This document shows positions 326 through 37,071 of a stretch of 56,575 bases of DNA, in pieces. Under the pieces are notes generated by a model that saw only the letters and a program-made list of their open reading frames with translations, was not told where the DNA came from and searched no databases. The stretch comes from a virus: the IMG/VR virus record IMGVR_UViG_3300002835_013445, positions 1 through 56,575 of that record. One strand, 5' to 3'. Within the stretch, counting starts at the first letter, position 1, and every line of letters starts with the position of its first letter. Both the position numbers and the translations under genes were made by a program.

Positions 326-1393
326 ATGAAAATAGCATTTTGTAAATTTGCCGGAATGGGTAATGGAGGAATAGAGAAGTATTTACAAACAATAGCCTTA
401 ATATATCACAAAGAACACAATGTAGATTATTACTACACAAATGCAGCCCCATTTCCTTGTCAATCTTGGCAGCACCCCGACAATGATGAACAACGAATTA
501 AATTATTTGAAGACAACGGTATCAATCTTATAAAGATACAGGTTGGATATAGAATTAAAAATGATTGGTATAATACAAATTTTACCGACCTGTTTGATGA
601 AAATAAATACGATTATTTAATTACTGCGGGGAATGGAGAGACAGAATATCCATATAAAACACTTAAAAAAATACCTATCATACATACTGTTCATGGCGAT
701 CATGTTTTTGATCAATCTAATGTTAAGTATTATGTTTTATTATGTGATTGGCAAGCAAAAAGATGGATTCAAAATGGTGGCGATGCGTCACGACTTATAA
801 TTGTTCCTCCCGTCGTTTATGTTCCAAAATTATGGAATAAAAATTTTAGAGAAACAATAGGAATTCCAAATGATGCTTTTGTATATGGATTACATCAAAG
901 AGGAGATAATTCTATAAGTTCAACAATCAGTCTAGAAGCATTTAGCCAGATACAATCTCCTAAAACTTATTATGTGATAATGGGTGGTGGAGAAGCACAC
1001 AGAAATTATGTCAGAGACAATAATATTAAAAATGTGATCTTTATTGATCAGTCATCTTGTATTTATACCATACATTCATTTCTGGATTCAATAGATGTTT
1101 ATGCTCATTGTAGATTAGATGGAGAGGTTTGTTCCGCTTCTATAATAGAGGCAATGTCTCATAATACTCCAATAATATCTTATCCAGGAATAAATATGGG
1201 ACACGAAGAACAATTACATGGATGTGGAAAGATGGCTTTTTCTGTGGAAGAGTATAAAAATGAAATGATTGCCTTACAGGACTCCAATTACTATAATAGT
1301 ATGTCTCAAAAAATAAACGAAAAGTATAATAGTGTTTACAATTACCAAATAGTCGAAGCAAAAATAAAAAATTTAATCAATGGCAACAATTAA
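326..1393 (+). CDS. Glycosyltransferase, GT4-like (GT-B fold)
   Basis: A 355-residue protein, a usual length for GT-B retaining glycosyltransferases. The N-terminus (KIAFCKFAGMGNGGIEKYL) has the glycine-rich acceptor-side loop, and the C-terminal half has the donor-binding pattern EVCSASIIEAMSHNTPIISY (residues near 270-290), with the conserved Glu and the EAM-x-x-x-TPII segment. It would transfer a nucleotide-activated sugar in the cytoplasm. The last 14 bases overlap the sugar isomerase gene that opens the heptose pathway, so it probably uses the sugar made by those genes. Donor and acceptor cannot be told from sequence. Confidence 0.85.
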   Translation: MKIAFCKFAGMGNGGIEKYLQTIALIYHKEHNVDYYYTNAAPFPCQSWQHPDNDEQRIKLFEDNGINLIKIQVGYRIKNDWYNTNFTDLFDENKYDYLITAGNGETEYPYKTLKKIPIIHTVHGDHVFDQSNVKYYVLLCDWQAKRWIQNGGDASRLIIVPPVVYVPKLWNKNFRETIGIPNDAFVYGLHQRGDNSISSTISLEAFSQIQSPKTYYVIMGGGEAHRNYVRDNNIKNVIFIDQSSCIYTIHSFLDSIDVYAHCRLDGEVCSASIIEAMSHNTPIISYPGINMGHEEQLHGCGKMAFSVEEYKNEMIALQDSNYYNSMSQKINEKYNSVYNYQIVEAKIKNLINGNN

Positions 1394-1940
1394 CCAATAT
1401 TTAGACGACATAAAGTTTATTTGTGATTCTCTCGATAAAACACAAATACAGAAATTTATAGATACTATAAAAAATATCTCACCAAAAGGCAGACTATTTA
1501 TTGTTGGTGTTGGCGGTAGTGCCGCTAACGCCTCTCATGCTGTCAATGATTTTCGAAAAATTTTGAGTATAGAAACATATACTCCAACAGACAATGTTTC
1601 TGAATTAACAGCAAGAATTAATGATGAGTCCTGGGAAGATGCCTATAAAAACTGGCTTAAGATTAGTAAACTCTGTAAAGAAGATATTTTAATTATTCTT
1701 TCTGTTGGTGGTGGCTCTATAAAAACTTCCTATAATTTAGTCAAGTCTATACAATACGCCTGGGAACAAGGATGCAAAATTTTATCAATAGTCAGTAGAG
1801 ACGGCGGATACTCTCTTCCAAACTCTCATGCCTGCATAAAAATACCATGTATTGATGATGATACGATAACCCCTCACGCAGAAGAATGGCAGGGAATCAT
1901 TCTTCATATGGTAGTACATATTTTAAGTCAAACAAAATGA
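1380..1940 (+). CDS. gmhA-like: Phosphoheptose isomerase-like SIS protein (GmhA type)
   Basis: A 186-residue single SIS-domain protein, the length of GmhA. The phosphosugar-binding loop GVGGSAANASHAV (residues 43-55) matches the GmhA G-x-GGSA-x-x-A-x-H pattern. A second glycine-rich stretch, LSVGGGS, lies in the middle, and the HAEEWQGIILHMVVH end fits the GmhA C-terminal helix with its His and Glu. GmhA converts sedoheptulose 7-phosphate to D-glycero-D-manno-heptose 7-phosphate. Upstream overlap is 14 bases and the stop overlaps the transaldolase start (ATGA). The next genes supply the following steps, which supports heptose rather than hexosamine chemistry. It could act on another ketose phosphate. 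Confidence 0.85.
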   Translation: MATINQYLDDIKFICDSLDKTQIQKFIDTIKNISPKGRLFIVGVGGSAANASHAVNDFRKILSIETYTPTDNVSELTARINDESWEDAYKNWLKISKLCKEDILIILSVGGGSIKTSYNLVKSIQYAWEQGCKILSIVSRDGGYSLPNSHACIKIPCIDDDTITPHAEEWQGIILHMVVHILSQTK

Positions 1941-2632
1941 AAATATCTATATATTATGATGGTTCAAATGAACTAGAAATATTAAGTTATAACAACACTA
2001 ATATAATTTCTGGTTTTACTACAAATCCATCTCTTATGAGACAAGCAGGGGTCGTAGAATATTCGGAATTCATACAATCTGTTACAAAATATGTCAAAGA
2101 TAAGCCAATATCTTTTGAGGTTTGCGCAGACGATATAGATGAAATGTATAGGCAGGCAAAAATTATTGCGTCGTATGGTAAAAATATATATGTAAAAATT
2201 CCTGTTGTAAATACAAAAAATCAATCTACCAAAAATTTGATTAAAAAATTATTAGATGACAATATTATGATAAATATAACTGCTGTTATGACACAAAATC
2301 AAATAGAATCTTTATTACCTTATATACAAAATACAACTAATGTTATTGTTTCCATTTTTGCTGGCAGAATGTGCGATACTGGCTATCATCCGAAAAGCAT
2401 AACTAAGTTTGCTAAAGAAAATTTACCACAAAATGCTAAAATTTTATGGGCAAGCACAAGAGAAGTATACAATATCTATGAAGCAAGTGAGCTTGGTTAT
2501 GATATAATAACGGTCACAGAACCTATACTTAAAAAATTTATGACTTTACAAAATAAAAATCTTGACGAATTTTCATTGGAAACTGTAAAAATGTTCTATA
2601 ACGACGCTATTGCGTCTAACTATACTTTATGA
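1937..2632 (+). CDS. tal: Transaldolase (TalC/F6P-aldolase-like, small subfamily)
   Basis: A 231-residue TIM-barrel aldolase of the short transaldolase group. The N-terminal motif GFTTNPSLM (26-34) and the Schiff-base lysine in IYVKIPVV (Lys87) are both present, followed by NITAVMT and SIFAGRMCD. I chose ATG 1937 because it forms an ATGA overlap with the upstream isomerase stop; an in-frame ATG at 1886 would overlap that gene by 55 bases. Transaldolases interconvert sedoheptulose 7-phosphate and hexose/tetrose/triose phosphates. Small transaldolases are known auxiliary genes in cyanophages. Here the neighbour is GmhA, so its job is probably to provide sedoheptulose 7-phosphate for the heptose route. 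Confidence 0.9.
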   Translation: MKISIYYDGSNELEILSYNNTNIISGFTTNPSLMRQAGVVEYSEFIQSVTKYVKDKPISFEVCADDIDEMYRQAKIIASYGKNIYVKIPVVNTKNQSTKNLIKKLLDDNIMINITAVMTQNQIESLLPYIQNTTNVIVSIFAGRMCDTGYHPKSITKFAKENLPQNAKILWASTREVYNIYEASELGYDIITVTEPILKKFMTLQNKNLDEFSLETVKMFYNDAIASNYTL

Positions 2633-3603
2633 TAATATCTCGCACACCACTTAGAGTTACGTTGGCTGGCGGAGGAACAGACCTTCCAGAATTTTATTCA
2701 CGATTTGGTGGTTCGGTAGTTTCTATGGCCATAGATAAATATATCTATATTCATTTTAAAAGAAATATACTAGATAATTTTGTCAGATTAAGGTATTTAC
2801 AAAATGAAGAAGTTACTAATTCAAATAAATTATCTAATGAAAGAGCAAGATGTGTATTACAAAAATTTAAAATCTATAATAAATGCGAAATCATAAGTGT
2901 CGGAGATCTTCCTTCTAATACGGGACTAGGATCTTCTGGTAGTTATTTAGTTGGCTTAATTAATGCTATACAAAAATATTCTAATCTAAATATGTCTAAA
3001 CAAGAGATTGCCGAATTAGCTTGTGATTTAGAAATAAATACTTTGGGAGAACCAGTCGGCAAACAAGACCAGTATATTGCATCTTATGGACATGTTTATA
3101 AATTTGATATAGATACTAGTGGAAATGTGTTCCCATCTAAAGTAAATATTTCAAATATTGATGAATTAATAGAAAATACAAGAATATACTATACCGGTAT
3201 ACAAAGAAGCGCTTCAGAAATTTTACACGATCAAAAAAAAGACCATCAAAAATTTAATTCTAATTTACAAAAAATACATGATATTGGTCTTGAAATGCTT
3301 GACACATTAATAAACAATAATTTTGATGACTATGGGTTTTTATTAAATGATTATTGGAGATACAAAAAATCTTTGTCGGCTAGTGTTTCCAATAATGTTG
3401 TAGATAGTATATATGATGATCTTATCGAAAGAAAACTAATCTTAGGAGGAAAGATAATTGGGGCTGGCGGAGGAGGATTTCTGCTCGTATATGCTCCAAA
3501 AAATAGACATAAGTTTTTAGATAAACAAATGGAAAGCATAGGATATCCAAGACTGGATTATGGAATAGATATTTATGGGACAAGTATCGTATATGAACAA
3601 TAA
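2629..3603 (+). CDS. hddA-like: GHMP-family sugar kinase, HddA type (heptose 7-phosphate kinase)
   Basis: 324 residues, the usual size for GHMP kinases of the HddA/fucokinase-like group. The N-terminus RTPLRVTLAGGGTDLPEFY is the signature of this group. The ATP-binding motif LPSNTGLGSSGSY is at residues 94-106, EPVGKQDQYIASYG is conserved, and the C-terminal motif KIIGAGGGGFLLV is intact. HddA phosphorylates D-glycero-D-manno-heptose 7-phosphate at C1, and this gene directly follows the isomerase and transaldolase. The start overlaps the transaldolase stop by four bases (ATGA). All expected catalytic motifs are present, so it should be active. Specificity is inferred from neighbours. Confidence 0.9.
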   Translation: MIISRTPLRVTLAGGGTDLPEFYSRFGGSVVSMAIDKYIYIHFKRNILDNFVRLRYLQNEEVTNSNKLSNERARCVLQKFKIYNKCEIISVGDLPSNTGLGSSGSYLVGLINAIQKYSNLNMSKQEIAELACDLEINTLGEPVGKQDQYIASYGHVYKFDIDTSGNVFPSKVNISNIDELIENTRIYYTGIQRSASEILHDQKKDHQKFNSNLQKIHDIGLEMLDTLINNNFDDYGFLLNDYWRYKKSLSASVSNNVVDSIYDDLIERKLILGGKIIGAGGGGFLLVYAPKNRHKFLDKQMESIGYPRLDYGIDIYGTSIVYEQ

Positions 3604-4312
3604 GGTTTATTGTTTTGATTTAGATGGCACATTATGCTCTCTATCATCTAAAGATTATTCTACAGCAATACCAATTTTGGAAGCTATAAAAGAAGTTAAT
3701 AGATTATACGATCTTGGTAACACTATAAAAATTTTTACGGCAAGAGGAACAACGTCGAAAATAGATTATACGATGTTGACTCAAGAACAACTTAAAACCT
3801 GGAAACTAAAATATCATGAATTAATAATGAACACAAAACCATCATTTGATATTTTCATAGACGATAGAGCTATTAATGCTTATGATTGGAGAAAAAATAT
3901 CACATCGGTCAAAGGTTTTATTTCTGGTAATTTCGATATTATACATCCTGGATACATATTACTATTTATGGAAGCAAAACAACATTGTAATCATCTTATT
4001 ATTGGACTTCATGAAGACCCATCTATAGAAAGACCACATAAGGATAAACCAGTACAATCGTTGGAAGAAAGAAAATTAATTTTATCTTCCATCAAATACA
4101 TAGACGATGTAGTAGTATATAAAACAGAAGAAGATCTTAAAGATATATTAATTGATCATAAAATTAATCTTATGGTATTAAGCGACGAGTATAAAAATAC
4201 TAAATATACAGGACACGATTTAGCTATACCAGTACATTTTCATAAAAGAGATCATGAATATAGCTCATCCAAACTTAAAAAACAAATAGCGGAGTCTATA
4301 AAATGCAAATAA
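3593..4312 (+). CDS. Fusion: HAD phosphatase domain plus cytidylyltransferase-like nucleotidyltransferase
   Basis: 239 residues in two domains. Residues 1-105 form a small HAD-like domain: YCFDLDGTLC (nucleophile Asp9, Asp11), FTARGT, and FIDDRA (acid pair). Residues about 110-239 form an HldE/TagD-like nucleotidyltransferase with GNFDIIHPGY, a conserved middle KPVQSLEERKLIL, and the YSSSKLK end. Together they could remove the 7-phosphate of heptose 1,7-bisphosphate and attach a nucleotide to heptose 1-phosphate, the two steps missing between the kinase and an NDP-heptose. The first loop reads HPGY instead of HxGH; I believe relatives with this variant exist. ATG 3593 was chosen because it overlaps the kinase stop by 11 bases; an ATG at 3575 is less compact. 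Confidence 0.8.
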   Translation: MNNKVYCFDLDGTLCSLSSKDYSTAIPILEAIKEVNRLYDLGNTIKIFTARGTTSKIDYTMLTQEQLKTWKLKYHELIMNTKPSFDIFIDDRAINAYDWRKNITSVKGFISGNFDIIHPGYILLFMEAKQHCNHLIIGLHEDPSIERPHKDKPVQSLEERKLILSSIKYIDDVVVYKTEEDLKDILIDHKINLMVLSDEYKNTKYTGHDLAIPVHFHKRDHEYSSSKLKKQIAESIKCK

Positions 4313-5220
4313 AAACAGCGATTGTTACTGGTGGTTGTGGTTTTATTGGAAGCCATCTTGTTGATAGGCTTGTTTCTATGAATATTGAAACAACTGTAAT
4401 AGATAATCTATCCGCAACATCAAATGAGAGATTTTACTATAACGATTTTGCAAAATATCATAATATAGATATTTGTGATCATGACAGTTTAGAGCCAATA
4501 TTCGAAAGAAATATCGATATTGTTTTTCATCTAGCCGCCGAATCAAGAATAGGCCCGACAATAATAAATCCAAGCAAAGCCGTAAAAACAAACATTCTTG
4601 GAACCCAAAACATTCTAGAGTTGTCAAAAAAATATAATATCAAAAAAATAATTTATTCGTCAACATCAGCATATTATGGATTAAAAAATACTCCACCTCT
4701 ATCAGAAGATATGGAACGAGACTGTTTAAATCCATATACTCTCACCAAGATAGCCGGTGAAGATTTGTGTGTATTATACAATAATTTTTATGAGTTGCCA
4801 ACAATATCTCTAAGATATTTTAATGTTTACGGAGACAGATCGCCCACTAGCGGACCATATGCTCCGGTTCTAGGGTTGTTTATTGATGCGTTTAATAATA
4901 AAAAACCAATGACTATAGTTGGAGATGGATCTCAAAGTAGAGATTTTATACACGTAAATGATGTTGTTGAGGCAAATATCTTCGCAGCAATAACAGAAAA
5001 TAAAAAAACTTTTGGACAAACATTCAATGTTGGTTCTGGAAAAAATTATTCGATCATTAGTATTGCCAAAATGATAGGCGGTGACTATAATTTTATTGAC
5101 CCAAGAGCCGGTGAAGCAAAAGACACACTATCAAACAACGAAAAAATATACAACCTTTTAGGATGGAAGCCTTCTAAAGATATAATAGACTATATTAAGG
5201 AAAAAATTAATGTCAATTGA
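4303..5220 (+). CDS. NAD-dependent sugar epimerase/dehydratase (extended SDR)
   Basis: 305 residues with the extended SDR layout. The NAD-binding GGCGFIG is at residues 10-16, the acidic end of beta-2 follows (VIDNLSA), and the catalytic Ser/Tyr/Lys are in YSSTSAYYG and NPYTLTK (Tyr145, Lys149). The substrate side carries SLRYFNVYGDRS and the RDFIHVNDV segment typical of NDP-sugar 4- or 6-epimerases. It probably epimerises or oxidises the nucleotide-heptose made by the preceding enzymes. It overlaps the fusion gene by ten bases and the methyltransferase by eleven. An NDP-hexose substrate cannot be excluded. Confidence 0.9.
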   Translation: MQIKTAIVTGGCGFIGSHLVDRLVSMNIETTVIDNLSATSNERFYYNDFAKYHNIDICDHDSLEPIFERNIDIVFHLAAESRIGPTIINPSKAVKTNILGTQNILELSKKYNIKKIIYSSTSAYYGLKNTPPLSEDMERDCLNPYTLTKIAGEDLCVLYNNFYELPTISLRYFNVYGDRSPTSGPYAPVLGLFIDAFNNKKPMTIVGDGSQSRDFIHVNDVVEANIFAAITENKKTFGQTFNVGSGKNYSIISIAKMIGGDYNFIDPRAGEAKDTLSNNEKIYNLLGWKPSKDIIDYIKEKINVN

Positions 5221-5902
5221 ATTAGAAAAAAAAATAGACGAAATCTTATTCGAAGTTAAAAATACTGCCAAAAGAGTAGGTGTTATAGATTATCACAAAA
5301 CATACCTCACACACTGTTGCAAAGAGATTAGTGTTGATGGATTATGGCTAGAATTTGGTGTTTATAGGGGTCGGAGTATAACTGCCATTTCTGAATTTAC
5401 CAAAAATATTGTTTATGGATTTGATAGTTTTGAGGGATTACCAGAGTTTTGGGATCAACAAAATCCTAAAGGAGTTTTTAATCTTGGTGGTATTATTCCA
5501 GAAGGAGCTATTTGCGGAAATAATGATGACAATCCTGGAATGTATAATTCTAGTCCTACAAAAACAACACAGCCTTGGAGACCAAATATAAAATTAATCA
5601 AGGGTTATTTCGAGAATACTCTTCCAGAATTTCTTAATGATCATACAGAAAAAGTCGCTTTTGTTCATATAGATAGCGATATATATAGTTCAGCTAGAAC
5701 CGTACTAACTCTTCTTAAAGATAGATTTCAAAATAATACTATATTGGCTTTTGATGAACTAACAGATTATCCTGATTTTAGAAACCATGAAATAAAAGCT
5801 TTTGCAGAATTTTTGCTTGAGACCGGTTATAAATATGAGGCAATATTTCACCAGTGCCTAGGTCAATACACACAATCCTGCTTTAAGATATTGTTGTCAT
5901 AA
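5210..5902 (+). CDS. TylF/MycF-type sugar O-methyltransferase
   Basis: 230 residues. The SAM-binding start LWLEFGVYRGRSITAI is followed by YGFDSFEGLPEFW, then by the metal-site pattern HIDSDIYSSARTVL and FDEL. This is the TylF/macrocin O-methyltransferase layout (class I Rossmann fold, Mg-dependent), which methylates sugar hydroxyls. Sitting after the SDR and before a GT2 enzyme, it likely methylates the heptose or the glycan. Methylated heptoses occur in Campylobacter capsule, where a comparable gene set (gmhA, hddA, nucleotidyltransferase, SDR, methyltransferase) is known. The role in a phage is inference. Confidence 0.85.
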   Translation: MSIELEKKIDEILFEVKNTAKRVGVIDYHKTYLTHCCKEISVDGLWLEFGVYRGRSITAISEFTKNIVYGFDSFEGLPEFWDQQNPKGVFNLGGIIPEGAICGNNDDNPGMYNSSPTKTTQPWRPNIKLIKGYFENTLPEFLNDHTEKVAFVHIDSDIYSSARTVLTLLKDRFQNNTILAFDELTDYPDFRNHEIKAFAEFLLETGYKYEAIFHQCLGQYTQSCFKILLS

Positions 5903-5910
5903 AATTAATA

Positions 5911-6651
5911 ATGAAAAATTATAAATGTTCAATATTTTGTAGCTTCTATAAAGGTGAAAAATTTATAGAAGGATATCTTGAGGATGTTCTGAAACAAACA
6001 GTCTTCAATGACGTAGAATTTGTCTTTTTGGATTGTGATTCGCCAGAAAACGAAAAAGAATACATACTTCCATTAATAAAAAAATATGATAATATCCTTT
6101 ATCACAAACTAGAAAAAGACCCAGGGTTATATCAAGCTTGGAATATAGCAATAAAACTATGTTCATCTCCAATCATAGGAAACTGGAACATTGATGATAG
6201 AAAGTCAATTAATAGTATAGATATATTACTAAAAAAATTCGATAAAAAACCAAGTCTAGATGTCTGCTATGGAATTACTTACGTTTCACGAATAGCAAAT
6301 GAAAAATATGAAGATAATGAATATAATCTTATTTACCCCTGTACTCAACATTCTCTTATTAATCTATTAAATAATAATTCGCCACACTGTATGCCATTGT
6401 GGAAAAAAAGTCTTCATGATCGGTTTGGATATTTTGATGAATCATATATTTCTGCGGCAGATGGAGAATTTTGGTTAAGGTGTGCATTTGGTGGAGCAAA
6501 ATTAGAAATGATTAATCACCCAATAGGTTTGTACTACGAAAACCCAACGGGTAGATCTACGAATCCAGAACATTTAGCCAAATGTCTTGAAGAGGTTAGA
6601 CGCAGTAGAGAACCATATATTAAATTATTATATAATAATAATGTTCAATAG
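5911..6651 (+). CDS. Glycosyltransferase family 2
   Basis: 246 residues, GT-A fold. The N-terminus KCSIFCSFYKGEKFIEGYL starts the GT2 nucleotide-binding beta strand, FVFLDCDSPEN follows, PGLYQAWNIAI is a typical GT2 segment, and NWNIDDRKS holds the DxD-equivalent acidic pair. AADGEFWLRCAF is the usual acceptor-side acidic motif. It follows the methyltransferase by eight bases and probably transfers the operon's sugar to an unknown acceptor. The final 11 bases overlap the next gene. No membrane segment, so it works in the cytoplasm. Confidence 0.88.
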   Translation: MKNYKCSIFCSFYKGEKFIEGYLEDVLKQTVFNDVEFVFLDCDSPENEKEYILPLIKKYDNILYHKLEKDPGLYQAWNIAIKLCSSPIIGNWNIDDRKSINSIDILLKKFDKKPSLDVCYGITYVSRIANEKYEDNEYNLIYPCTQHSLINLLNNNSPHCMPLWKKSLHDRFGYFDESYISAADGEFWLRCAFGGAKLEMINHPIGLYYENPTGRSTNPEHLAKCLEEVRRSREPYIKLLYNNNVQ

Positions 6652-7183
6652 ACTAAATAATCAAAGAGTGTATTTAGCCGGTGCTATGGATAGAGTTGTA
6701 GATAGAGGCAACGGTTGGAGAAATAATATAACTCCATTCCTAGAAGATTTAGGAATAGTAGTTTTTAATCCAATAAAAAAACCGACAATAGTTGGCCAAG
6801 AGGATGAGCAAACTCATAAGTATAAGTTAAAACTTAAACAAGAAATGAATTACGATGAACTTTCTAGTGTTATGAAAGTAATTCGTTCTGTTGATCTTAG
6901 ATTAGTAGATATCAGTGATTTTTTAATTGTTAATCTGGATTTGGATATTCATCCTTGTGGTACATATGAAGAAATTTTTTGGGCAAACCGTCAGAAAAAA
7001 CCTATTATAGTACATATGGTTCAAGGTAAACAAAAAGCTCCGGATTGGTTGTTCGGAACTATACCACATCAAATGATATTCTCATCATGGGATGATGTTA
7101 AAATTTATTTATTACAAATACATAACGACAAAGAAATTAAAACCTACAACAGATGGTACTTTTTCAATGCAAAAAATAATTAA
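6641..7183 (+). CDS. Nucleoside 2-deoxyribosyltransferase-like protein
   Basis: 180 residues. RVYLAGAMDR and the following Arg/Asn/Trp segment resemble the nucleoside-binding start of the deoxyribosyltransferase superfamily, VDISDFLIVNL is the conserved Asp strand, and PCGTYEEIFWANRQKKPII contains the GT-x-E catalytic Glu pattern. Enzymes of this fold swap or hydrolyse bases on 2'-deoxynucleosides. I chose ATG 6641, which overlaps the GT2 stop; an upstream in-frame ATG at 6587 would overlap by 65 bases. It precedes GMP reductase, so purine nucleotide handling is a sensible guess. It may instead be a hydrolase of deoxynucleotides. Confidence 0.7.
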   Translation: MFNRLNNQRVYLAGAMDRVVDRGNGWRNNITPFLEDLGIVVFNPIKKPTIVGQEDEQTHKYKLKLKQEMNYDELSSVMKVIRSVDLRLVDISDFLIVNLDLDIHPCGTYEEIFWANRQKKPIIVHMVQGKQKAPDWLFGTIPHQMIFSSWDDVKIYLLQIHNDKEIKTYNRWYFFNAKNN

Positions 7184-8279
7184 CGAAACTAAATTAGATT
7201 TTGATGATGTTCTGATTCGTCCTAAACGATCAACATTAAATAGCAGATCCGAAGTAAATTTGATTAGAACTTTTAAATTTGCTCACAGCCCTAGAGAACT
7301 AAATTGTGTACCACTAATGGTAGCAAATATGGACACTGTTGGAACGATACCTATGGGTAGATCGTTATCTATACATCAGTCTATTACTTGTTTACATAAA
7401 CACTATGACGAGGATGTACTAGTCAATCTGTTTGTTAAACCCACCGACTATTTTTGGTATTCGACTGGCACATCTAAAAAAGATATCGAGAAACTAGAGC
7501 GTGTTTTTAATACTATAAAACATAGTCAAGGATATATTCCAAACGTTTGTCTAGATGTAGCCAACGGATACACTGAACAATTTGTAAAAACAGCATCTCA
7601 TATTCGTAAACTATATCCAGAAATTATTCTAATGGCTGGAAATGTCGTAACTCCAGAAATGACAGAAGAATTAATTATTCATGGCAAAGTTGATATAGTC
7701 AAGGTTGGTGTAGGATCAGGCAGTGTTTGTACTACTCGTTTAAAAACTGGCGTGGGATACCCTCAATTGAGTGCGGTAATGGAATGTGCGGACGCTGCTC
7801 ATGGTCTTGGTGGACACATTTGTTCTGACGGAGGCTGTAAAGTAGTCGGAGACATTTGTAAGGCTTTTGGTGGTAATGCTGATTTTGTAATGTTGGGTAG
7901 TATGTTTGCTGGTGCTGATGAGTGCGAAGGAGAATGGAAATATGAATGGAAAATGAGAAGTGGTGGATGGCAACCTTTCGATCCACAATCTCCTGATGTT
8001 GAAAAACGCAAAGTATCATTACAATACTATGGCATGAGTAGCAAAAATGCTATGGATAAACACCATGATGGAGTGGCAAACTACAGAACAGCAGAAGGCA
8101 AATGTGTTACTGTTTCATATAAGGGTCATGCAATAGATATTTTGCAAGATGTCTATGGAGGTCTACGCAGTGCCTGCACATATGTTGGAGCAAATAAAAT
8201 CAAAGACTTTGGTAAAAAAACAACATTCATACAAGTTAATAATACTCACAATAAGGTATACGAAAATGCAAAAACTTAA
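7167..8279 (+). CDS. guaC: GMP reductase
   Basis: 370 residues of the IMP dehydrogenase/GMP reductase TIM barrel without CBS domains. The active-site loop GVGSGSVCTTRLKTGVGYP carries the catalytic Cys188, and CSDGGCKVVGD, FGGNADFVMLGSMFAG and YGMSSKNAM are all as in bacterial GuaC, as is the end RSACTYVGANKIKDFGKKT. GMP reductase turns GMP into IMP with NADPH and releases ammonia. Start ATG 7167 overlaps the preceding stop by 17 bases. A full, intact copy in a phage is uncommon; it may redirect host guanine nucleotides to adenine or dATP. Confidence 0.93.
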   Translation: MQKIINETKLDFDDVLIRPKRSTLNSRSEVNLIRTFKFAHSPRELNCVPLMVANMDTVGTIPMGRSLSIHQSITCLHKHYDEDVLVNLFVKPTDYFWYSTGTSKKDIEKLERVFNTIKHSQGYIPNVCLDVANGYTEQFVKTASHIRKLYPEIILMAGNVVTPEMTEELIIHGKVDIVKVGVGSGSVCTTRLKTGVGYPQLSAVMECADAAHGLGGHICSDGGCKVVGDICKAFGGNADFVMLGSMFAGADECEGEWKYEWKMRSGGWQPFDPQSPDVEKRKVSLQYYGMSSKNAMDKHHDGVANYRTAEGKCVTVSYKGHAIDILQDVYGGLRSACTYVGANKIKDFGKKTTFIQVNNTHNKVYENAKT

Positions 8280-12461: not shown

Positions 12462-13137
12462 CTCAACATCCAATAAAGAAAACGAATTCGAACTCAGCAA
12501 TATTCATAATTATAATATTGATACAAAACATAGAGAACTGTATTTGCATTCATATTTAGATGTAGAAGAAGAGGGTGGAGTAGACTTTAGATCGGCTATT
12601 CTTTTTGAAAAAAATATTAGATATTTAAATTCCTTATCTATAGAACCTATATTGGTTCATATGCACCTTCCTGGCGGTGTTTGGGGTGATTGCATGGGCA
12701 TCTACGATTGCATAAAACTTTCTAAATCAAAGATTATTATATTAGCCTATGGTAGTGTGGAATCGGCCAGTAGTGTTATATTACAGTCGGCGGATTTGAG
12801 AATTTTAATGCCAAATACCAATGTATTAATTCACTACGGATCTATTAGTGTTGATAACGAACATAAGGCCGCTTTGAGTTGGGTTCAATGGAGTGAAAAA
12901 GAAAGCGAAAAAATGATAGATATTTTTACAGAAAAATATATTGATAGCGATTTAGCCAAAGCAAAAAACTTAAAAAAAATGATGGCAAAAAAACATATAA
13001 TAGCCCAATTAGCTAATAAATGCGACTGGATACTCACAGCACAAGAAGCTGTCAACTATAATTTTGCCGACGGTGTACTTGGTAGTAAGAGATATACAAG
13101 TATAGAGTCGTTAAAAGATATAGTGAAGAAAAAATAA
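12454..13137 (+). CDS. clpP-like: ClpP-like serine protease (S14 family)
   Basis: 227 residues. HMHLPGGVWGDCMGIYD matches the ClpP substrate strand, AYGSVESASSVILQSADLRI contains the catalytic Ser (probably Ser104), MPNTNVLIHYGS has the catalytic His127, and AVNYNFADGVLG has an Asp near residue 207 where ClpP has its Asp. All three are therefore present. Phage ClpP-like enzymes often mature capsids or digest scaffold, but those are usually fused or adjacent to capsid genes, and none is seen here. It overlaps the next gene by a single base (TAATG). Confidence 0.85.
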   Translation: MSNSTSNKENEFELSNIHNYNIDTKHRELYLHSYLDVEEEGGVDFRSAILFEKNIRYLNSLSIEPILVHMHLPGGVWGDCMGIYDCIKLSKSKIIILAYGSVESASSVILQSADLRILMPNTNVLIHYGSISVDNEHKAALSWVQWSEKESEKMIDIFTEKYIDSDLAKAKNLKKMMAKKHIIAQLANKCDWILTAQEAVNYNFADGVLGSKRYTSIESLKDIVKKK

Positions 13138-13784
13138 TGAATATAGAATACAATCTATATAATATAGACTATAATGAAATAGAGCTTAAGGCAAAAATAG
13201 AAGAAGCTATTAAATATAGCGTCTCCTCGATATCAGTACCATTTGCTTATACTAAACTATGCAAGTCTCTAGTCAAAGATACCGGAATTAAGATAGCGAA
13301 CCCAATAGACTATCCATTAGGTATTATGGATACTAATTCGAGAGGATTTGCTATAAAAAACGCTATAGATAACGGCGCACAAAAAATTAATATAGTTATT
13401 CAAAATAATCTATTATGTTCAAAAAAATATGATAAAATAAAACAAGATATACAAAACAATAATAACATTTGCACAGAAAAAAATGTAGACCTGAACTATT
13501 ATGTAGAGTATAGAACTTTTACCCACCAGTCTCTGATCAAAGCCTGTGCAATATTATTAGAAAACAATATACAAAAAGCATATGTTTCTACTGGTTTTAT
13601 GCTAGATAATCCAGAAGATAATCTTATCGCGACAGTTTTATTGAAAGATAAATCAAAAATACAAACAATTTTTACAGGAAACATCTGGACGGTTAAGCAT
13701 GTGGAAAATTTAAGAAAAAATAATATTTCTTATGTATGCACCAATAGTATTGAAAGTATAAAACTAATTCATAAATATCTATAA
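13137..13784 (+). CDS. DeoC-fold protein, probably catalytically dead
   Basis: 215 residues resembling deoxyribose-phosphate aldolase: SSISVPFAYTKLCKSL, KIANPIDYPLGI, GAQKINIVIQNN, AYVSTGFMLDNP and TGNIWTVKHVENL line up with the DeoC barrel strands. The residues that make DeoC an enzyme are replaced: the Asp of VD-x-V is Asn85, the Schiff-base Lys of KTSTG is Tyr149, and the second Lys before GG is absent. So I infer a binding or structural role, not an aldolase. It is coupled to the ClpP-like gene by TAATG. An alignment would settle the substitutions. Confidence 0.65.
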   Translation: MNIEYNLYNIDYNEIELKAKIEEAIKYSVSSISVPFAYTKLCKSLVKDTGIKIANPIDYPLGIMDTNSRGFAIKNAIDNGAQKINIVIQNNLLCSKKYDKIKQDIQNNNNICTEKNVDLNYYVEYRTFTHQSLIKACAILLENNIQKAYVSTGFMLDNPEDNLIATVLLKDKSKIQTIFTGNIWTVKHVENLRKNNISYVCTNSIESIKLIHKYL

Positions 13785-13790
13785 TTTATA

Positions 13791-15071
13791 ATGTCAATTT
13801 TCATCAGTATAGCGTCATATAGAGATCCTGAGACTATCCCAACTATTATTGACGCATATAATAAATCTAAATATAAAGATCAACTAAAATTTGGGGTTCT
13901 TCTTCAAGAAGATCAAGGTTTTTCCAAAAAAGAACTACTGTCGTCTGGTATTAATATAGAATTTTTAGATTATGATTGGAGAGAAAGCCAAGGAACTTGT
14001 TGGGCAAGAAATACTATTCAAAAATTGTTGTTCAATAACGAAGAATATTATTTACAACTTGATTCACATCATAGATTTTGTGAAAATTGGGACGAAAAAT
14101 TAATTGAAATGTTTGAAGAAACACAAAAGACATACTCTAAGCCAATTATTGGAGGATATTGTCCGGGCTATGTTCCAAAAAATGATAAAAATTTGGAACA
14201 AAAACCTATGAGAATTGCTTCTTTTGCAGACTTTACCGATCTTGGCGACCTAATGTTTATTCCCAAAGTTATTAAAGATTATCAAAAACTACAAAATAAA
14301 AAGATAAAACTAATAAAAGCACGATTCTTATCCGGGCACTTTATATTTGCTGGACAAACTTTTGTTAAAGAATGTATATATGATCCAAATATGTATTTTA
14401 GAGGAGAAGAAATAAGTCTATCTGCTAGAGCATATACTAATGGTTACGATTTTTTTCATCCAACAACACCAATAGTTTGGCATGAATATCTTAGAACGGA
14501 ACAAATCAAGCATTGGGACGACCACACAAAAGAAAATGGTTTTATAGTAACGTCTGAAAATAGATCTAATATAGGTAAACAAAGAGCTAGACATTTATTA
14601 GGAATGGAAAAAAACTCTACCAAGTTTGGCAAATATGGTCTTGGAGACAAAAGGACTTTGCATGAATATGAATTATATGCTGGATTAAATTTTGGACAAA
14701 GACTTATTCATAAGGATACCTACGATATTAATGACACATGTAAAGAGCCATATCCCATGACAGAAGAGGAGTGGTCATCTGGCATGCTCAGTAAATATTC
14801 TGTAGAATTTGATATGCCAAATAACTATATGTTAAATCTGATAGATAAAAATGTGAATTCACTAGCTATAATTTTACACGATAGCAAAGACAATATTTCT
14901 TATAGAAAAGATATTAGAAAAAATGATTTTAAAAATTTTAATACCAATATTTTAAGATTGATAGGAAGTATGGAGTCGAAACCACATAGAGTAACACTGA
15001 TACCATTTTTAGAAAACAAATCATCACTACAAACACAAGTAATAAGATCAATAAGGATAGCAAATGAATAA
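13791..15071 (+). CDS. GlcNAc-type glycosyltransferase (GT-A, PF11397-like)
   Basis: 426 residues. IFISIASYRDPETIPTIIDA is the start motif of the glycosyltransferase (GlcNAc) family known from eukaryotes, bacteria and large viruses. YYLQLDSHHRFCENWDEKLI carries the metal-binding D-x-H, SGHFIFAGQTFVKE and FRGEEISLSARAY follow as in the family, and IVWHEYLR supplies a conserved His. It would transfer GlcNAc or a related sugar to a protein or glycan. About 150 C-terminal residues extend past the catalytic domain. The stop overlaps the next gene by eight bases. Confidence 0.85.
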   Translation: MSIFISIASYRDPETIPTIIDAYNKSKYKDQLKFGVLLQEDQGFSKKELLSSGINIEFLDYDWRESQGTCWARNTIQKLLFNNEEYYLQLDSHHRFCENWDEKLIEMFEETQKTYSKPIIGGYCPGYVPKNDKNLEQKPMRIASFADFTDLGDLMFIPKVIKDYQKLQNKKIKLIKARFLSGHFIFAGQTFVKECIYDPNMYFRGEEISLSARAYTNGYDFFHPTTPIVWHEYLRTEQIKHWDDHTKENGFIVTSENRSNIGKQRARHLLGMEKNSTKFGKYGLGDKRTLHEYELYAGLNFGQRLIHKDTYDINDTCKEPYPMTEEEWSSGMLSKYSVEFDMPNNYMLNLIDKNVNSLAIILHDSKDNISYRKDIRKNDFKNFNTNILRLIGSMESKPHRVTLIPFLENKSSLQTQVIRSIRIANE

Positions 15072-31704: not shown

Positions 31705-32744
31705 TCACATATTTTAGAAGTAGTTCTTTTAACACACATAATATGTGTGAACAGCAATATTTTATGGAATATGTACTTGGGTGGCGTGGCCCTTCAAATA
31801 AAAAAGCAGACAAAGGTACTATAGTACATAAAGTTTTAGAAGTTTTAGCAGATATTAAACTAGCACAGCAAAATAAAAAAAGTAAAATTGTTGATGATAT
31901 TTTAAAAGAGATTGATACACAGAACTATTCTTTAAACGATATCATAGAACAAGTTTATGATTTTTATACCAAACAATTTGGTCATCACGAATGGTCAAGC
32001 AAAGACTTCTCTGATTGTAAACTATGGTGTCAAAAAGTAATTGATTTTAATGGTGGCATGTTTGATCCAAGAAATAGACAAATTCTTCAACCAGAACAAC
32101 ATTTTGATATAGTTATAGATAAACCTTGGTCAAAATATAGTTATAAAACTGACGAAGGAGATCTGGATGGAAATTTGGCTTTAAAAGGCACTATTGACTT
32201 GATCACCAGGATCGACGATAATACTATAGAAGTCATAGACTGGAAAACAGGCAAAAGGCTGGACTGGGCAACAGGACAAGAAAAAACTCACGCAAAACTA
32301 CAAAACGATCCACAGTTAATGATATATCACTATGCTATAAGTCAAATATTTCCAGAATACGACCATATCATAGTTACAATTTACTTTATCAATGATGGTG
32401 GTCCGTTTTCAATAATGTTTGATAAGAGCGATCTTGCTAGAACAGAAAATATGTTAAGAAATAAGTTTGAGATTATAAAAAAGACAAAAAAGCCAAGACT
32501 ACATAAAACATGGATGTGTAGTAAGCTTTGTCATTTTGGTAAAACCACTTTTGAAGACAACAGTAATATAAAACCCATTGTCGAGTACAGAGATAACCAA
32601 CCCTGTAACATTGGCTATAATATGACAAAATGTGAACAGGTTAAACACGAAATCGAAATCAAAGGGATAGATCAGGTAATATCTGAATATAAAAACCCAC
32701 AACATAACTTTGGTAAATATAAAGCCCCAGGATCAATAGAATGA
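31698..32744 (+). CDS. PD-(D/E)XK nuclease (RecB/Cas4-like), probably non-AUG start
   Basis: About 348 residues. The catalytic core IEVIDWKTGKR is the D-x-K strand, preceded by KGTIDLITRIDDN; C-terminal Cys near MCSKLCHFG and NMTKCEQ could hold an Fe-S cluster. The first ATG is 31743, but the same frame upstream encodes ITYFRSSSFNTHN, which matches the usual N-terminal helix of this family before CEQQYFMEYVLGW. There is no ATG, GTG or TTG upstream, but AAAGGA at 31684-31689 sits eight bases before an ATT at 31698, so ATT (or ATA/ATC next to it) is the likely start. The alternative is ATG 31743. Confidence 0.8.
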   Translation: MIITYFRSSSFNTHNMCEQQYFMEYVLGWRGPSNKKADKGTIVHKVLEVLADIKLAQQNKKSKIVDDILKEIDTQNYSLNDIIEQVYDFYTKQFGHHEWSSKDFSDCKLWCQKVIDFNGGMFDPRNRQILQPEQHFDIVIDKPWSKYSYKTDEGDLDGNLALKGTIDLITRIDDNTIEVIDWKTGKRLDWATGQEKTHAKLQNDPQLMIYHYAISQIFPEYDHIIVTIYFINDGGPFSIMFDKSDLARTENMLRNKFEIIKKTKKPRLHKTWMCSKLCHFGKTTFEDNSNIKPIVEYRDNQPCNIGYNMTKCEQVKHEIEIKGIDQVISEYKNPQHNFGKYKAPGSIE

Positions 32745-34609
32745 AATATAATCCGTTACATTGTCACTCAATGTATTCTTTGCTTGATGGTCTTTCAAAA
32801 CCATCACAGATTGCGTCCCGATGTGTTGATATTGAAGCTAAAGCATGTGCATTAACAGATCACGGAAATATAGCCGGAGCAATTAAATTTCATAAGGCGA
32901 TGACTAAAGTTGGAGTAAAACCAATTCTTGGTTGTGAGATCTATTTGTGTGACAAAGACGCAACAGATCAAACCAAAGACAATAAAAGTCTCACACACTT
33001 TCTTATTTTGGCCAAAAATATAAAAGGTTGGAAAAAATTAATTAGTCTTGTGTCAGAATCTAATAGGCCCGATTTTTTTTATCATAAGCCAAGACTAGAT
33101 TTAAATAATCTGGCAAGATTTATAGATGGTAATCTTATAGGATTTTGTGGACACCTAGGCTCTCTTGTTGCGGATAAAATAATTGATAACGATAAGATTA
33201 ATCCCGATTGGAAAAATATTGGTAGTTCAATTGTTAACAAATTAAAGAATATCTTTGGTAATGATAATTTTTTTCTAGAAGCACAATTAATGGATGTGGT
33301 TAATACTCCAATACAAAAAAACTTAACAGATGTAATAAGAGAACTTGGCAAGATTACAGATACTAAAGTAATATGCACACCAGATGCTCATTATGCGAAA
33401 AAAGAGGATGCCTCTGATCAAAGAATATTGCTTTGTAATAACTTAAAAACAACACTGCCTGATATAAGCAGAAAAATAGCAAATAATCAAGATGTTCCAT
33501 TGGGTTGTTTCTTTAATTCTGACAACTTTCATATTTTATCTCAAGAAGAGATGTCGGATATGCACACAGAAGAAGAGATTGCTAATACTCAATTAATTGC
33601 TGATATGTGTGAAGAATATGATATTACAAGCCGTCCAAAGCTACCTCCTTTTGATTGTAAGCCTAATCCAGACGAATTTTTAAGACAATTATGTAGAGAT
33701 GGCTGGAAAGATAAGATAGCTAATTTCATAACAAAGGAAAAACAAGAAGAATATGTTGATAGAATTAAGTATGAACTAGGAATTTTACAAGGGGCTGGGT
33801 TGAGTAGTTACTTTCTAATAGTACAAGATATTGTGCGATATATTAGAAATAGCAATTGGCTTCCAGGTCCAGGAAGAGGTAGTGCCGCTGGATGTCTTGT
33901 TTCTTACTTAATAGGAATAACTAGTATTGATCCAATAAAATATAGTTTACTTTTTGATAGATTTTACAACTCCGGACGCAACACTAGTGACCGAGTTAGT
34001 ATGCCAGATATTGATGTGGACGTTCCTATAGAAAAAAGAGAAAACATTATAGACTATATCAAAAATAAATATGGGCAAAACCAAGTTTCTCAAATGGTTA
34101 CTTTTAATACCATCAAAGGTAGAGGCGCTATAAAAGATGTATTAAGAGTCTATGGGAATATAGGTTTTGATGAAATGAATAAAATTACAAAAAATATTCC
34201 GGACGAAGCAAAAATTGCTGACGAACTACAAGAAATGAAAGATGAAACTGGAGAAGCTTCTATCATAAGATGGTCGTTAGAAAACGAGTCCGACAAACTT
34301 AAAGATTGGTGCTTTATTGACGATAATAATGAACTACAAGGGCCTCTTGCCAAGCGATTTGAACAGGCTATAAGATTAGAGGGCACCAAGGTGAACCAGT
34401 CAAAACATGCCGCTGGGGTTGCAATAGCTGATGAAAACCTATCAGATATTTGTCCAATGATATATGATACCAAAAGCGAAACAAAAATAGCTGGTATGGA
34501 AATGGAAGATCTAGAAAATATCGGTGTTGTTAAATTCGATATTTTAGGTGTTGCTATGTTAGATAAAATTATGTTTATTTCAGAATACTTAAAAACGGAG
34601 GGACTATAA
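32741..34609 (+). CDS. dnaE (N part): DNA polymerase III alpha, N-terminal half (PHP and catalytic palm)
   Basis: 622 residues. PHP domain LHCHSMYSLLDG (His7, His9) and ALTDHGNIAGAIKFHKA; palm with LPGPGRGSAAGCLVSYLIG (374-392), MPDIDVDVPIEKRENI (catalytic Asp425 and Asp427) and VVKFDILGV (third Asp600). It therefore carries all catalytic aspartates of a C-family polymerase but stops just after the last one, where a normal DnaE would continue into the fingers. The continuation is encoded by the gene at 35479. No intein sequence is seen at the break. The start overlaps the nuclease stop by four bases. Confidence 0.93.
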   Translation: MKYNPLHCHSMYSLLDGLSKPSQIASRCVDIEAKACALTDHGNIAGAIKFHKAMTKVGVKPILGCEIYLCDKDATDQTKDNKSLTHFLILAKNIKGWKKLISLVSESNRPDFFYHKPRLDLNNLARFIDGNLIGFCGHLGSLVADKIIDNDKINPDWKNIGSSIVNKLKNIFGNDNFFLEAQLMDVVNTPIQKNLTDVIRELGKITDTKVICTPDAHYAKKEDASDQRILLCNNLKTTLPDISRKIANNQDVPLGCFFNSDNFHILSQEEMSDMHTEEEIANTQLIADMCEEYDITSRPKLPPFDCKPNPDEFLRQLCRDGWKDKIANFITKEKQEEYVDRIKYELGILQGAGLSSYFLIVQDIVRYIRNSNWLPGPGRGSAAGCLVSYLIGITSIDPIKYSLLFDRFYNSGRNTSDRVSMPDIDVDVPIEKRENIIDYIKNKYGQNQVSQMVTFNTIKGRGAIKDVLRVYGNIGFDEMNKITKNIPDEAKIADELQEMKDETGEASIIRWSLENESDKLKDWCFIDDNNELQGPLAKRFEQAIRLEGTKVNQSKHAAGVAIADENLSDICPMIYDTKSETKIAGMEMEDLENIGVVKFDILGVAMLDKIMFISEYLKTEGL

Positions 34610-34793: not shown

Positions 34794-35489
34794 ATGTTAA
34801 CCAAAAAAATTTGCGTATTCGACTTTGAAACCGACGGATCAGATCCGTATGTCTGTAGTCCGGTTCAGTTATCTGCTGTTATTGTAGATCCGATTAAACT
34901 TGATATTATACCAGGATCAGAGTTTAATGTCTTTTTCAAGCCAGAGGTAATAGAAAAAGATCCAGATTATCAATATACAACAGATATTATTGATTTTCAT
35001 TCTAGAGTAAAAGGATGTTCTCAAGAAGAGATATATAAACAATGGCAAGAATATCCTTCTCAAGAAATATCTTGGACATCGTTTATAAACTATTTAGAAA
35101 AATACCATTGCGGTGGCAGGAAAAAGAAAAATATGTTTTCTGCTCCAATAGCCGCTGGATACAATATCAATAGGTTTGATTTAAAAATTATAAACAGACT
35201 ATCAGAAAAATATAAAAATCTAGAGACAAAAGAGAATGTATCTAATCTTTTTTATCCTAGAGACGTAATAGATATTATGAATTTAGTATTTTATTGGTTT
35301 GAAAATTTAGATATAAAAAGCTATTCATTAGATAATGTTCGAGATTTCTTAGGGATAGATAAAGAAGGAGCGCATGATGCTGTGAAGGACGTTATAGATT
35401 CCGCAAATATCCTTATAAGATTTTTAAGACTACATAGAAATTTATCGTCAAAGATTAAGTTCAAAGGATCTTTTACTAATGCTAGCTAA
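34794..35489 (+). CDS. dnaQ-like: 3'-5' exonuclease (DnaQ-like, DEDDh)
   Basis: 231 residues. Exo I: VFDFETDGSDPY (Asp10, Glu12); Exo II: AAGYNINRFDLKII (Asp129); Exo III: EGAHDAVKDV (His194, Asp199). These are the catalytic residues of the DEDDh exonuclease family, the epsilon proofreading type. Being placed between the two polymerase halves, it should supply proofreading to that polymerase. Its last 11 bases overlap the second half's start. No clamp-binding motif was found by eye. Confidence 0.9.
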   Translation: MLTKKICVFDFETDGSDPYVCSPVQLSAVIVDPIKLDIIPGSEFNVFFKPEVIEKDPDYQYTTDIIDFHSRVKGCSQEEIYKQWQEYPSQEISWTSFINYLEKYHCGGRKKKNMFSAPIAAGYNINRFDLKIINRLSEKYKNLETKENVSNLFYPRDVIDIMNLVFYWFENLDIKSYSLDNVRDFLGIDKEGAHDAVKDVIDSANILIRFLRLHRNLSSKIKFKGSFTNAS

Positions 35490-37071
35490 GTATGAGTGTG
35501 GATGTTCTTTTAGAATATCAGATTCCGAAGACCGAAATAAGATCATTTACGACACAAACGATATAAATTTTGATTGTGTAAAAACTTGGGACCTTCTAGC
35601 AGACGGAAATACAAAAGGAGTATTTCAGTTAGAGTCTCGACTTGGACAAAGTATGTCAAAAAAACTAAAACCAGAAAATATAGAACAATTATCTGCGTTG
35701 ATTAGTATTATGAGGCCGGGATGCTTAGAGGCTTTTAGGGAAGGAAAAAGCGTAAGTAATCATTTTATAGACAAAAAAAATGGATCAGAATCTATAGATT
35801 ATTTTAATGAGGCTCTTGAGCCTATACTAAAAAACACTTATGGAGAAATGGTCTATCAGGAACAGGCTATGGAAATAGCTAAAGATATAGCCGGTTTTAA
35901 TTTGCAAGAAGCAGATATGCTTAGAAAAGCCATTGGCAAGAAAAGGCCAGAAGAAATGGCAAAAATCAAAAATAAATTCATTGACGGCTGTAAAAAGATA
36001 AATAAGGTTTCTGTTGATGAGGCAGAGCAGATATTCGGATGGATAGAAAAAAGCCAAAGATATTCTTTTAATAAGAGTCATGCGGTAAGCTATGCTGTTA
36101 ATGCTTATATCTCTGCGTTCGCAAAGGCTCATTTTCCATTAGTCTTTTTCTTATCGTATTTAAGATTAGCAAAAGATAAAATTAAGCCACACGAAGAAAT
36201 ATTAGAGTTGATTATTAACGCAAAAACGATGGGGATCTATGTCTTTGGTCCAGATCTGAGATTAAAGAATAAGGACTTTGTTATTAATGATACAAAGATA
36301 TACTTTGGTTTGACCAATATAAAAGGTCTTGGAGATGCGGTATTTATTAAATTGTTTGATCTAATCAAAGATAAAGATCTTTATCAGTATGCTTGGTTGA
36401 ATATGCTATTTGAGGTTCTACTAAATATTAACAGTACCGCCGCAAAAGCACTAATATCTTCTGGGGCTTTAGACTATTATAAAATATCTAGAAATAAAAT
36501 GTTGCATGAATATATAATGGTTTCCGAATTAACCAATAAAGAAATAGCTATATGTCTACAAAGCGAAATAAAAAATACAGAGCTAAAAAATATTCTGAGA
36601 TTTTTACTAACCCAAAAGGTAAGCAAACCAAGACAACAAAAGGTTTTATCTCTTATTAATCAACTAGAAAACCCATCTTATAGTCTAGAAGATAGTATAG
36701 AATGGCTATCGGATAACGAGAGAGAACTACTAGGAGCATCTATTACCTGTACAAAAACAGATTCTTACGATTCTTCGTATGCTAACACAGATTGTGGTAA
36801 TATACAATCTTTTAATACAGACAAGCAGTTTTTTATTGTAGCCGAAATAGATGGATACAATGTTATAAAAACAAAAAGAGGGAAAAATCCAGGACAGGAA
36901 ATGTGCTTTCTAAAACTATCAGATTCTTATGGAAGCATAGATTGTGTTGTTTTTCCGGATGAATATTCGGAAATGAAAAATTTATTAGAAATTGGAAGAG
37001 TTTTAATGTTTAATGGTCAAAAATCAAAAAAAGACCATACACCAGTTGTAAAAAAATGTTTTGTTGTTTGA
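35479..37071 (+). CDS. dnaE (C part): DNA polymerase III alpha, C-terminal half (fingers, (HhH)2 and OB)
   Basis: 530 residues. After about 50 residues with a CGC pair, DLLADGNTKGVFQLES, IMRPGCLEAFREGKS, NTYGEMVYQEQAMEIAKDIA, ADMLRKAIGKKRPEEMAKIK and FNKSHAVSYAVNAYISAFAK are the classical fingers of DnaE. The end (EMCFLKLSDSYGSIDCVVFP) is an OB fold. It carries no PHP or palm, so it must pair with the product of the gene at 32741. Its start in the alpha sequence follows directly on the other part's end, with little missing. This is a split replicase. Confidence 0.93.
   Translation: MLAKYECGCSFRISDSEDRNKIIYDTNDINFDCVKTWDLLADGNTKGVFQLESRLGQSMSKKLKPENIEQLSALISIMRPGCLEAFREGKSVSNHFIDKKNGSESIDYFNEALEPILKNTYGEMVYQEQAMEIAKDIAGFNLQEADMLRKAIGKKRPEEMAKIKNKFIDGCKKINKVSVDEAEQIFGWIEKSQRYSFNKSHAVSYAVNAYISAFAKAHFPLVFFLSYLRLAKDKIKPHEEILELIINAKTMGIYVFGPDLRLKNKDFVINDTKIYFGLTNIKGLGDAVFIKLFDLIKDKDLYQYAWLNMLFEVLLNINSTAAKALISSGALDYYKISRNKMLHEYIMVSELTNKEIAICLQSEIKNTELKNILRFLLTQKVSKPRQQKVLSLINQLENPSYSLEDSIEWLSDNERELLGASITCTKTDSYDSSYANTDCGNIQSFNTDKQFFIVAEIDGYNVIKTKRGKNPGQEMCFLKLSDSYGSIDCVVFPDEYSEMKNLLEIGRVLMFNGQKSKKDHTPVVKKCFVV

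Follow-up and report, generated by a model that had tools for sequence, protein, structure and literature searches.

A putative phage-borne pathway for a nucleotide-activated heptose with its own supply of sedoheptulose 7-phosphate

Which sugar is made by a virus that carries, in one tight run of genes, a transaldolase, a sugar-phosphate isomerase, a sugar kinase, a phosphatase fused to a nucleotidyltransferase, an SDR and a methyltransferase? The question is raised by the IMG/VR virus record IMGVR_UViG_3300002835_013445, the whole of which (56,575 nucleotides, here called the window) was analysed. A sequence-only reading had proposed that these genes, packed with overlaps at positions 1380-6651, encode successive steps of nucleotide-heptose synthesis. 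The gene set was borne out: all named open reading frames (ORFs) are present where they had been placed, with intact, overlapping frames on the + strand and significant Pfam family matches. We consider it about two-thirds probable that the locus enables the phage to make a nucleotide-activated heptose, including its own supply of sedoheptulose 7-phosphate. The record is a phage, as had been claimed, since it is nearly identical (99.9-100%) to positions ~35,100-91,670 of the 159,255-bp IMG/VR contig 3300020556_000002 (the sister contig), which encodes a terminase, a tail fibre, RuvB and a DNA ligase, and since phage replication genes are also present in the window record itself.

In the proposed route, every step of which rests on homology, the transaldolase, classified by its active-site pattern, would convert fructose 6-phosphate and erythrose 4-phosphate to sedoheptulose 7-phosphate, the GmhA-like isomerase would turn this product into heptose 7-phosphate, and the HddA-like kinase would add a phosphate at C1. 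In the fusion protein, the HAD half would then take off the phosphate at C7 and the cytidylyltransferase-like half would yield a nucleoside diphosphate (NDP)-heptose, most likely CDP-heptose. The SDR and the TylF-type methyltransferase would probably modify the sugar, and the neighbouring GT4 and GT2 glycosyltransferases may transfer it, perhaps onto a phage protein in the cytoplasm.

Predicted enzymes of the pathway

Transaldolases are separated from fructose-6-phosphate aldolases by the Schiff-base lysine together with glutamate and phenylalanine positions. In the window protein, Lys104, Glu78 and Phe158 (numbered from the ORF start at 1886) align with the Thermoplasma transaldolase and are invariant in four viral relatives, a pattern that fits a transaldolase rather than a fructose-6-phosphate aldolase.

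The AlphaFold model of the isomerase (pLDDT 97.6) has GmhA structures as its best Foldseek matches (lowest E 4.5e-12; the top ones with TM 0.82-0.87), which agrees with the GmhA fold first suggested. At the positions of the GmhA zinc ligands it carries H53, D57, E168 and H176, a set that is invariant in 37 relatives and is also found in the isomerases of the isolated phages SynMITS9220M01 and Cr30. The zinc ligands of B. pseudomallei GmhA, H64, E68, Q175 and H183 (H-E-Q-H), have been reported to be completely conserved in orthologues and important for activity (PMC5705639; PMC5387315). Both histidines are kept in the window protein, but two of the four ligands are replaced (E by D57, Q by E168), and the label GmhA-type is therefore overstated in the strict sense. 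Sequence and model together describe a GmhA-like protein whose metal site departs consistently from the canonical one, and it would be expected to isomerise sedoheptulose 7-phosphate.

For the kinase, the nearest solved chains are WcbL and other heptose kinases (3.4e-33). Its residues R9, D18, Q146 and D147 correspond to R13, D22, Q162 and D163 of WcbL, mutation of any of which abolishes heptokinase activity. The retention of these residues and the match of the isomerase model to GmhA support the order of steps originally proposed, from sedoheptulose 7-phosphate supply through isomerase, 1-kinase, phosphatase and nucleotidyl transfer to the SDR. The alpha anomer is believed to be the substrate of GHMP heptokinases (PMC4691232).

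The predicted HAD-nucleotidyltransferase fusion is present, and its two halves can be specified as an EcbF/AfhF-type HAD and a glycerol-3-phosphate-cytidylyltransferase-like domain, neither of them of the HldE, GmhB or HddC type. Its structural model is of moderate quality (pLDDT 85.7, low across part of the HAD). The HAD catalytic residues D15, D17, T55, K88, D96 and D97 are invariant. The HAD half gave no match to GmhB models and falls outside the HisB/GmhB-type HAD-IIIA group, its nearest families being EcbF-BcbF and AfhF. It matches AfhF of phage HY126, a D-arabinose 1,5-diphosphate phosphatase (9IQW), and thus a phage phosphatase already known to act on a sugar bisphosphate. In the nucleotidyltransferase half, H124, G126, R225 and S230 are invariant; it gave no match to the HddC model and lies outside the HldE-C/HddC family, and its nearest solved structures are glycerol-3-phosphate and ethanolamine-phosphate cytidylyltransferases. 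Since it resembles CTP enzymes and keeps the arginine of the RTEGISTT motif of glycerol-3-phosphate cytidylyltransferase (GCT), CTP is the likeliest nucleotide, and CDP-heptose would be a likelier product than ADP- or GDP-heptose. We know of no described CDP-heptose. With a CTP-type nucleotidyltransferase and a kinase family that gives the alpha anomer, ADP-beta-heptose is not the expected product; the suggestion of a link to innate immunity through ADP-heptose, for which no tie of the phage to animals was seen either, was dropped.

Spread of the cassette and exchange of its parts

Relatives of the cassette were reached through kinase, HAD-nucleotidyltransferase and IMG/VR scans; a tblastn search of isolated phages with the isomerase gave no match. 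The trio of isomerase, transaldolase and HddA-like kinase recurs in other viral contigs at ~45-60% identity and, more distantly, in bacterial genomes. In total, 58 viral loci (non-redundant) and 52 bacterial ones have this core, a conservation that excludes a chance association. When the isomerase alignment was run against bacterial genomes, it identified 80 loci, mostly from Lachnospiraceae but also from Melainabacteria, Ignavibacteria and others; of these, 74 have a member of the transaldolase cluster and 57 one of the HddA-like kinase cluster. The usual bacterial operon comprises an SDR, an HddA-like kinase, an HddC-like protein fused to a GmhB-like one, the isomerase and the transaldolase. 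GmhB-type and HddC-type partners, present in 51 of the 52 bacterial trio loci, would complete a GDP-heptose route.

The phosphatase and nucleotidyltransferase were scored over all loci with profiles built in this analysis, partners being counted within 8 kb. One phosphatase type and one nucleotidyltransferase type accompany the trio in 45 of the 58 viral loci, in the combinations GmhB with GCT (22 loci), EcbF-type HAD with GCT (16), GmhB with HddC (4) and EcbF-type HAD with HddC (3). None of these 45 loci has two phosphatase types or two nucleotidyltransferase types within that distance, with the caveat that one locus (L106/L141) has an HddC-like ORF further downstream. The other 13 lack the phosphatase, the nucleotidyltransferase or both, partly due to contig ends. 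That the HAD half would serve in dephosphorylation and the nucleotidyltransferase half in activation is most strongly supported by this non-orthologous exchange; in particular, the exchange with GmhB in other cassettes suggests that the HAD half works like GmhB.

The fusion partner of the EcbF-type HAD also varies, being the nucleotidyltransferase in the window type of cassette and the isomerase in two other loci (L105 and L118). At L105:7662-8555, a 297-amino-acid HAD-SIS fusion joins a phosphatase of the window type to an isomerase rather than to a nucleotidyltransferase. A second phage cassette type (L158, similar in L157-L209) consists of a GCT-like nucleotidyltransferase, the isomerase, GmhB, the transaldolase, one glycosyltransferase-like ORF and HddA. 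In phylogenetic trees, the window isomerase belongs to a virus-only clade of 22 isomerases (support 0.99) and the window kinase to a virus-only clade of 19 kinases (support 1.0), which points to a long history of the cassette in phages. The GT4 neighbour is common to most window-type viral loci, and the TylF methyltransferase is near the cassette in most of them. Its action, and that of the SDR, on a heptose is plausible.

Alternative products and the acceptor of the sugar

Several observations weigh against a heptose pathway. The best NCBIfam models are gmhA for the isomerase, transald_staph for the transaldolase, HddA for the kinase, g3p_cytidyltrns and rfaE_dom_II for the nucleotidyltransferase and galE for the SDR; each of these matches scores below the cut-off of its equivalog. 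The isomerase reaches 41 of 209.45 bits (TIGR00441, gmhA), the transaldolase 257.6 of 281.95 bits (TIGR02134), the kinase 144.3 of 600 bits (HddA model NF049969, nevertheless its best) and the nucleotidyltransferase 61.5 of 181.5 bits (rfaE_dom_II) and 63.2 of 165.4 bits (g3p_cytidyltrns). The SDR is below the cut-offs of the galE, LegB, RmlB and HldD models alike, with 116.5 of 274.6 bits for HldD (TIGR02197) and higher scores for galE-type models. Two isomerase ligands are replaced, and for one of these changes the B. pseudomallei GmhA mutant with the equivalent substitution, Q175E, has been described as inactive (PMC5705639). In the nucleotidyltransferase, the second histidine of the HxGH motif is a tyrosine in the window and a tyrosine or histidine in relatives. 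The kinase is of a type associated with the alpha anomer, whereas HldE-type nucleotidyltransferases are associated with the beta anomer, and the joint working of both types is only presumed. Finally, classical heptose clusters, such as that of C. jejuni, are without a transaldolase.

A C7 product is nevertheless the favoured one: the isomerase and kinase belong to GmhA-like and heptokinase-like families, the bacterial partners are GmhB and HddC, and the type of transaldolase points the same way. Because the transaldolase is so tightly linked to the cassette, the main rival is an octose. In lincomycin biosynthesis, the octose pathway enzymes are LmbR, LmbN, LmbP, LmbK, LmbO and LmbM; by the same logic, the phage transaldolase would use ribose 5-phosphate to form octulose 8-phosphate, and the SIS isomerase, GHMP kinase, HAD, nucleotidyltransferase and SDR would lead to an NDP-octose. 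The enzyme classes correspond one to one, and the linkage of a transaldolase to the trio in both bacteria and viruses, odd for heptose clusters, is normal in an octose pathway. However, the phage transaldolase is close to TIGR02134, a family built on a staphylococcal enzyme thought to serve the pentose phosphate pathway. In 6 of the 12 bacterial genomes checked, moreover, the operon transaldolase is the sole member of its family, which favours an ordinary transaldolase making sedoheptulose 7-phosphate, and SynMITS9220M01 has the kinase, isomerase, fusion and SDR with no transaldolase nearby. An octose product is, on balance, unlikely.

An NDP-pentose route for DNA hypermodification is more doubtful still. 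Here the isomerase would form arabinose 5-phosphate, the kinase and HAD would yield arabinose 1-phosphate, and the nucleotidyltransferase would activate it. Such a route would agree with AfhF being, among solved structures, the closest to the HAD half and with the existence of arabinosylated phage DNA (PMC6024577), but it leaves the transaldolase unexplained, the isomerase is GmhA-like and not KdsD/GutQ-like, and the bacterial operons have GmhB and HddC. Neither a thymidylate-synthase-type hydroxymethylase (PF00303) nor a Tet/JBP oxygenase (PF12851) was found in the 159-kb sister contig, the completeness of which is not established; the same result speaks against DNA decoration, one of the uses of the sugar considered at the outset. 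The phage with the second cassette type (L158) does have a Tet/JBP oxygenase, and DNA sugar modification is possible there. Least credible is auxiliary pentose-phosphate metabolism, in which the transaldolase would redirect host carbon during infection and its siting beside sugar-nucleotide genes would be incidental: talC is an auxiliary metabolic gene in cyanophages, but cyanophage TalC is just ~30% identical to the window protein, which travels in dozens of divergent loci with the isomerase and kinase, commonly together with a phosphatase and a nucleotidyltransferase as well.

The heptose pathway can be worded more narrowly as a phage-evolved route to CDP-heptose (less likely an octose) that includes a transaldolase of its own, relies on an H-D-E-H isomerase, has a HAD-nucleotidyltransferase fusion in place of GmhB and HddC, and serves to glycosylate phage proteins; this fuller proposal is tentative. 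By a hydropathy count, no ORF of the sister contig has more than three predicted membrane spans, and therefore genes for a flippase, polymerase or export system are not apparent in it. Cytoplasmic glycosylation of phage proteins is perhaps the simplest idea of an acceptor. A possible glycan acceptor is the 1700-amino-acid tail fibre protein of the sister contig (L222:402-5504), in which collagen-like GXX triplets occur 113 times; a prolyl hydroxylase for this fibre was considered and rejected, PF13640 being absent.

Genomic setting and comparison with known systems

The genes of the locus are listed below. Judging by the N-termini of relatives, the transaldolase start at ATG 1937 is likelier than that at 1886 and gives a 4-nt ATGA overlap with the isomerase gene, and the fusion is likelier to start at 3593 than at 3575.

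Table 1. Genes of the putative heptose cassette and its glycosyltransferase neighbours (window positions)
Product	Position	Strand	Supporting match or feature
GT4-family glycosyltransferase	326..1393	+	Pfam Glycos_transf_1 / Glyco_trans_1_4
GmhA-like SIS sugar-phosphate isomerase	1380..1940	+	SIS_2 3e-7; metal site H53-D57-E168-H176
Transaldolase, TIGR02134 type	1937..2632 (listed ORF from 1886)	+	TAL_FSA 1.3e-29
HddA/WcbL-like GHMP kinase	2629..3603	+	GHMP_kinases_N 8.9e-14; HddA model 5.8e-42
Fusion of EcbF/AfhF-type HAD (N) and cytidylyltransferase-like domain (C)	3575..4312	+	CTP_transf_like 6.2e-13
Extended SDR, nucleotide-sugar epimerase/dehydratase type	4303..5220	+	Pfam Epimerase 2.8e-57; phrog_540 8.8e-83
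TylF-type methyltransferase	5210..5902	+	Pfam TylF 5.7e-10
GT2-family glycosyltransferase	5911..6651	+	Pfam Glycos_transf_2 5.5e-13

The cassette is located inside a same-strand gene run, at ~28.3 to 44.4 kb of the sister contig, with GT47-like, GT10-like, GT4 and GT2 enzymes. The Exostosin/GT47-like and alpha-1,3-fucosyltransferase/GT10-like genes of this run are located just upstream of the window start (L217:11792-14865). At 6587-8279, a nucleoside 2-deoxyribosyltransferase-like ORF is followed by a GMP reductase (PRK05096, 464 bits, above the cut-off); in L006/L007, too, this pair adjoins the cassette, and a GMP reductase is likewise present in Caulobacter phage Cr30. Further along are an ORF resembling, by eye, deoxyribose-phosphate aldolase (13137-13784), a glycosyltransferase of a family better known from eukaryotes (13791-15071; Pfam PF11397, GlcNAc, 2.2e-59) and two ORFs (32741-34609 and 35479-37071) that seem to be parts of one split DNA polymerase III alpha-like protein, separated by an exonuclease-like ORF. 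A cyanobacterial host was not supported, the photosystem gene PF00124 being absent in six contigs. The DnaB-type helicase is uninformative on the host, since its matches in diverse phages are only ~27% identical.

Read as a heptose pathway, the cassette would make the whole of nucleotide-heptose synthesis, precursor supply included, a module of viruses and bacteria in which the phosphatase and the nucleotidyltransferase are interchangeable. Its small set of apparently soluble enzymes offers a tool for asking which higher sugar phages make and what its target is, and the cassette suggests what the many HAD and cytidylyltransferase genes of phages may do whose present label is 'phosphoheptose isomerase' or hypothetical.

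Heptose-type genes have already been annotated in the isolated phages SynMITS9220M01, Cr30, P-SSM2 and S-CAM3, gmhA has been mentioned briefly among viral auxiliary genes (PMC12694929), and lipopolysaccharide-related genes have been noted in pelagimyophages (PMC7029224). SynMITS9220M01 (Synechococcus) and Cr30 (Caulobacter) share with the window the HddA-like kinase and an annotated phosphoheptose isomerase, and the former additionally has a 52%-identical HAD-nucleotidyltransferase fusion and an SDR; however, no transaldolase was found near their genes, and their isomerases are much diverged. The arabinosyl-hydroxymethylcytosine pathway, represented by AfhF of phage HY126, has a homologous HAD (AfhF itself) and a similar logic of isomerase, phosphatase and nucleotidyltransferase, but it concerns a pentose and a DNA acceptor, no transaldolase has been reported in it, and a KdsD/GutQ-like isomerase has been proposed in RB69 (PMC6024577). 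The lincomycin octose pathway, likened by class alone, comprises a transaldolase, SIS, GHMP kinase, HAD, nucleotidyltransferase and SDR in the different setting of antibiotic biosynthesis in Streptomyces.

The likeness to bacterial heptose loci, for which the sequence-only reading had named Campylobacter as an example, stands, but Campylobacter is not the closest parallel. The C. jejuni capsule heptose pathway (PMC10680097) resembles the cassette in the broad families of isomerase and kinase and in the order of chemical steps, whereas the phage adds a transaldolase and the H-D-E-H isomerase, and its fusion replaces GmhB and HddC. The closest counterpart is the transaldolase-containing operon of Lachnospiraceae, Melainabacteria, Ignavibacteria and others (L018-L097), for which no experimental description was found. 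Its isomerase, transaldolase and kinase genes are adjacent, with ~55%, 42% and 36% identity to the phage proteins, and its isomerase has the same invariant metal-site residues; in contrast, its phosphatase and nucleotidyltransferase come from unrelated families and are fused in the reverse order. Within the collection of papers searched, none was found to describe a heptose cassette of phages that is linked to a transaldolase, and this transaldolase-linked form, the HAD-cytidylyltransferase fusion in place of GmhB and HddC, and the pattern of exchange appear to be new.

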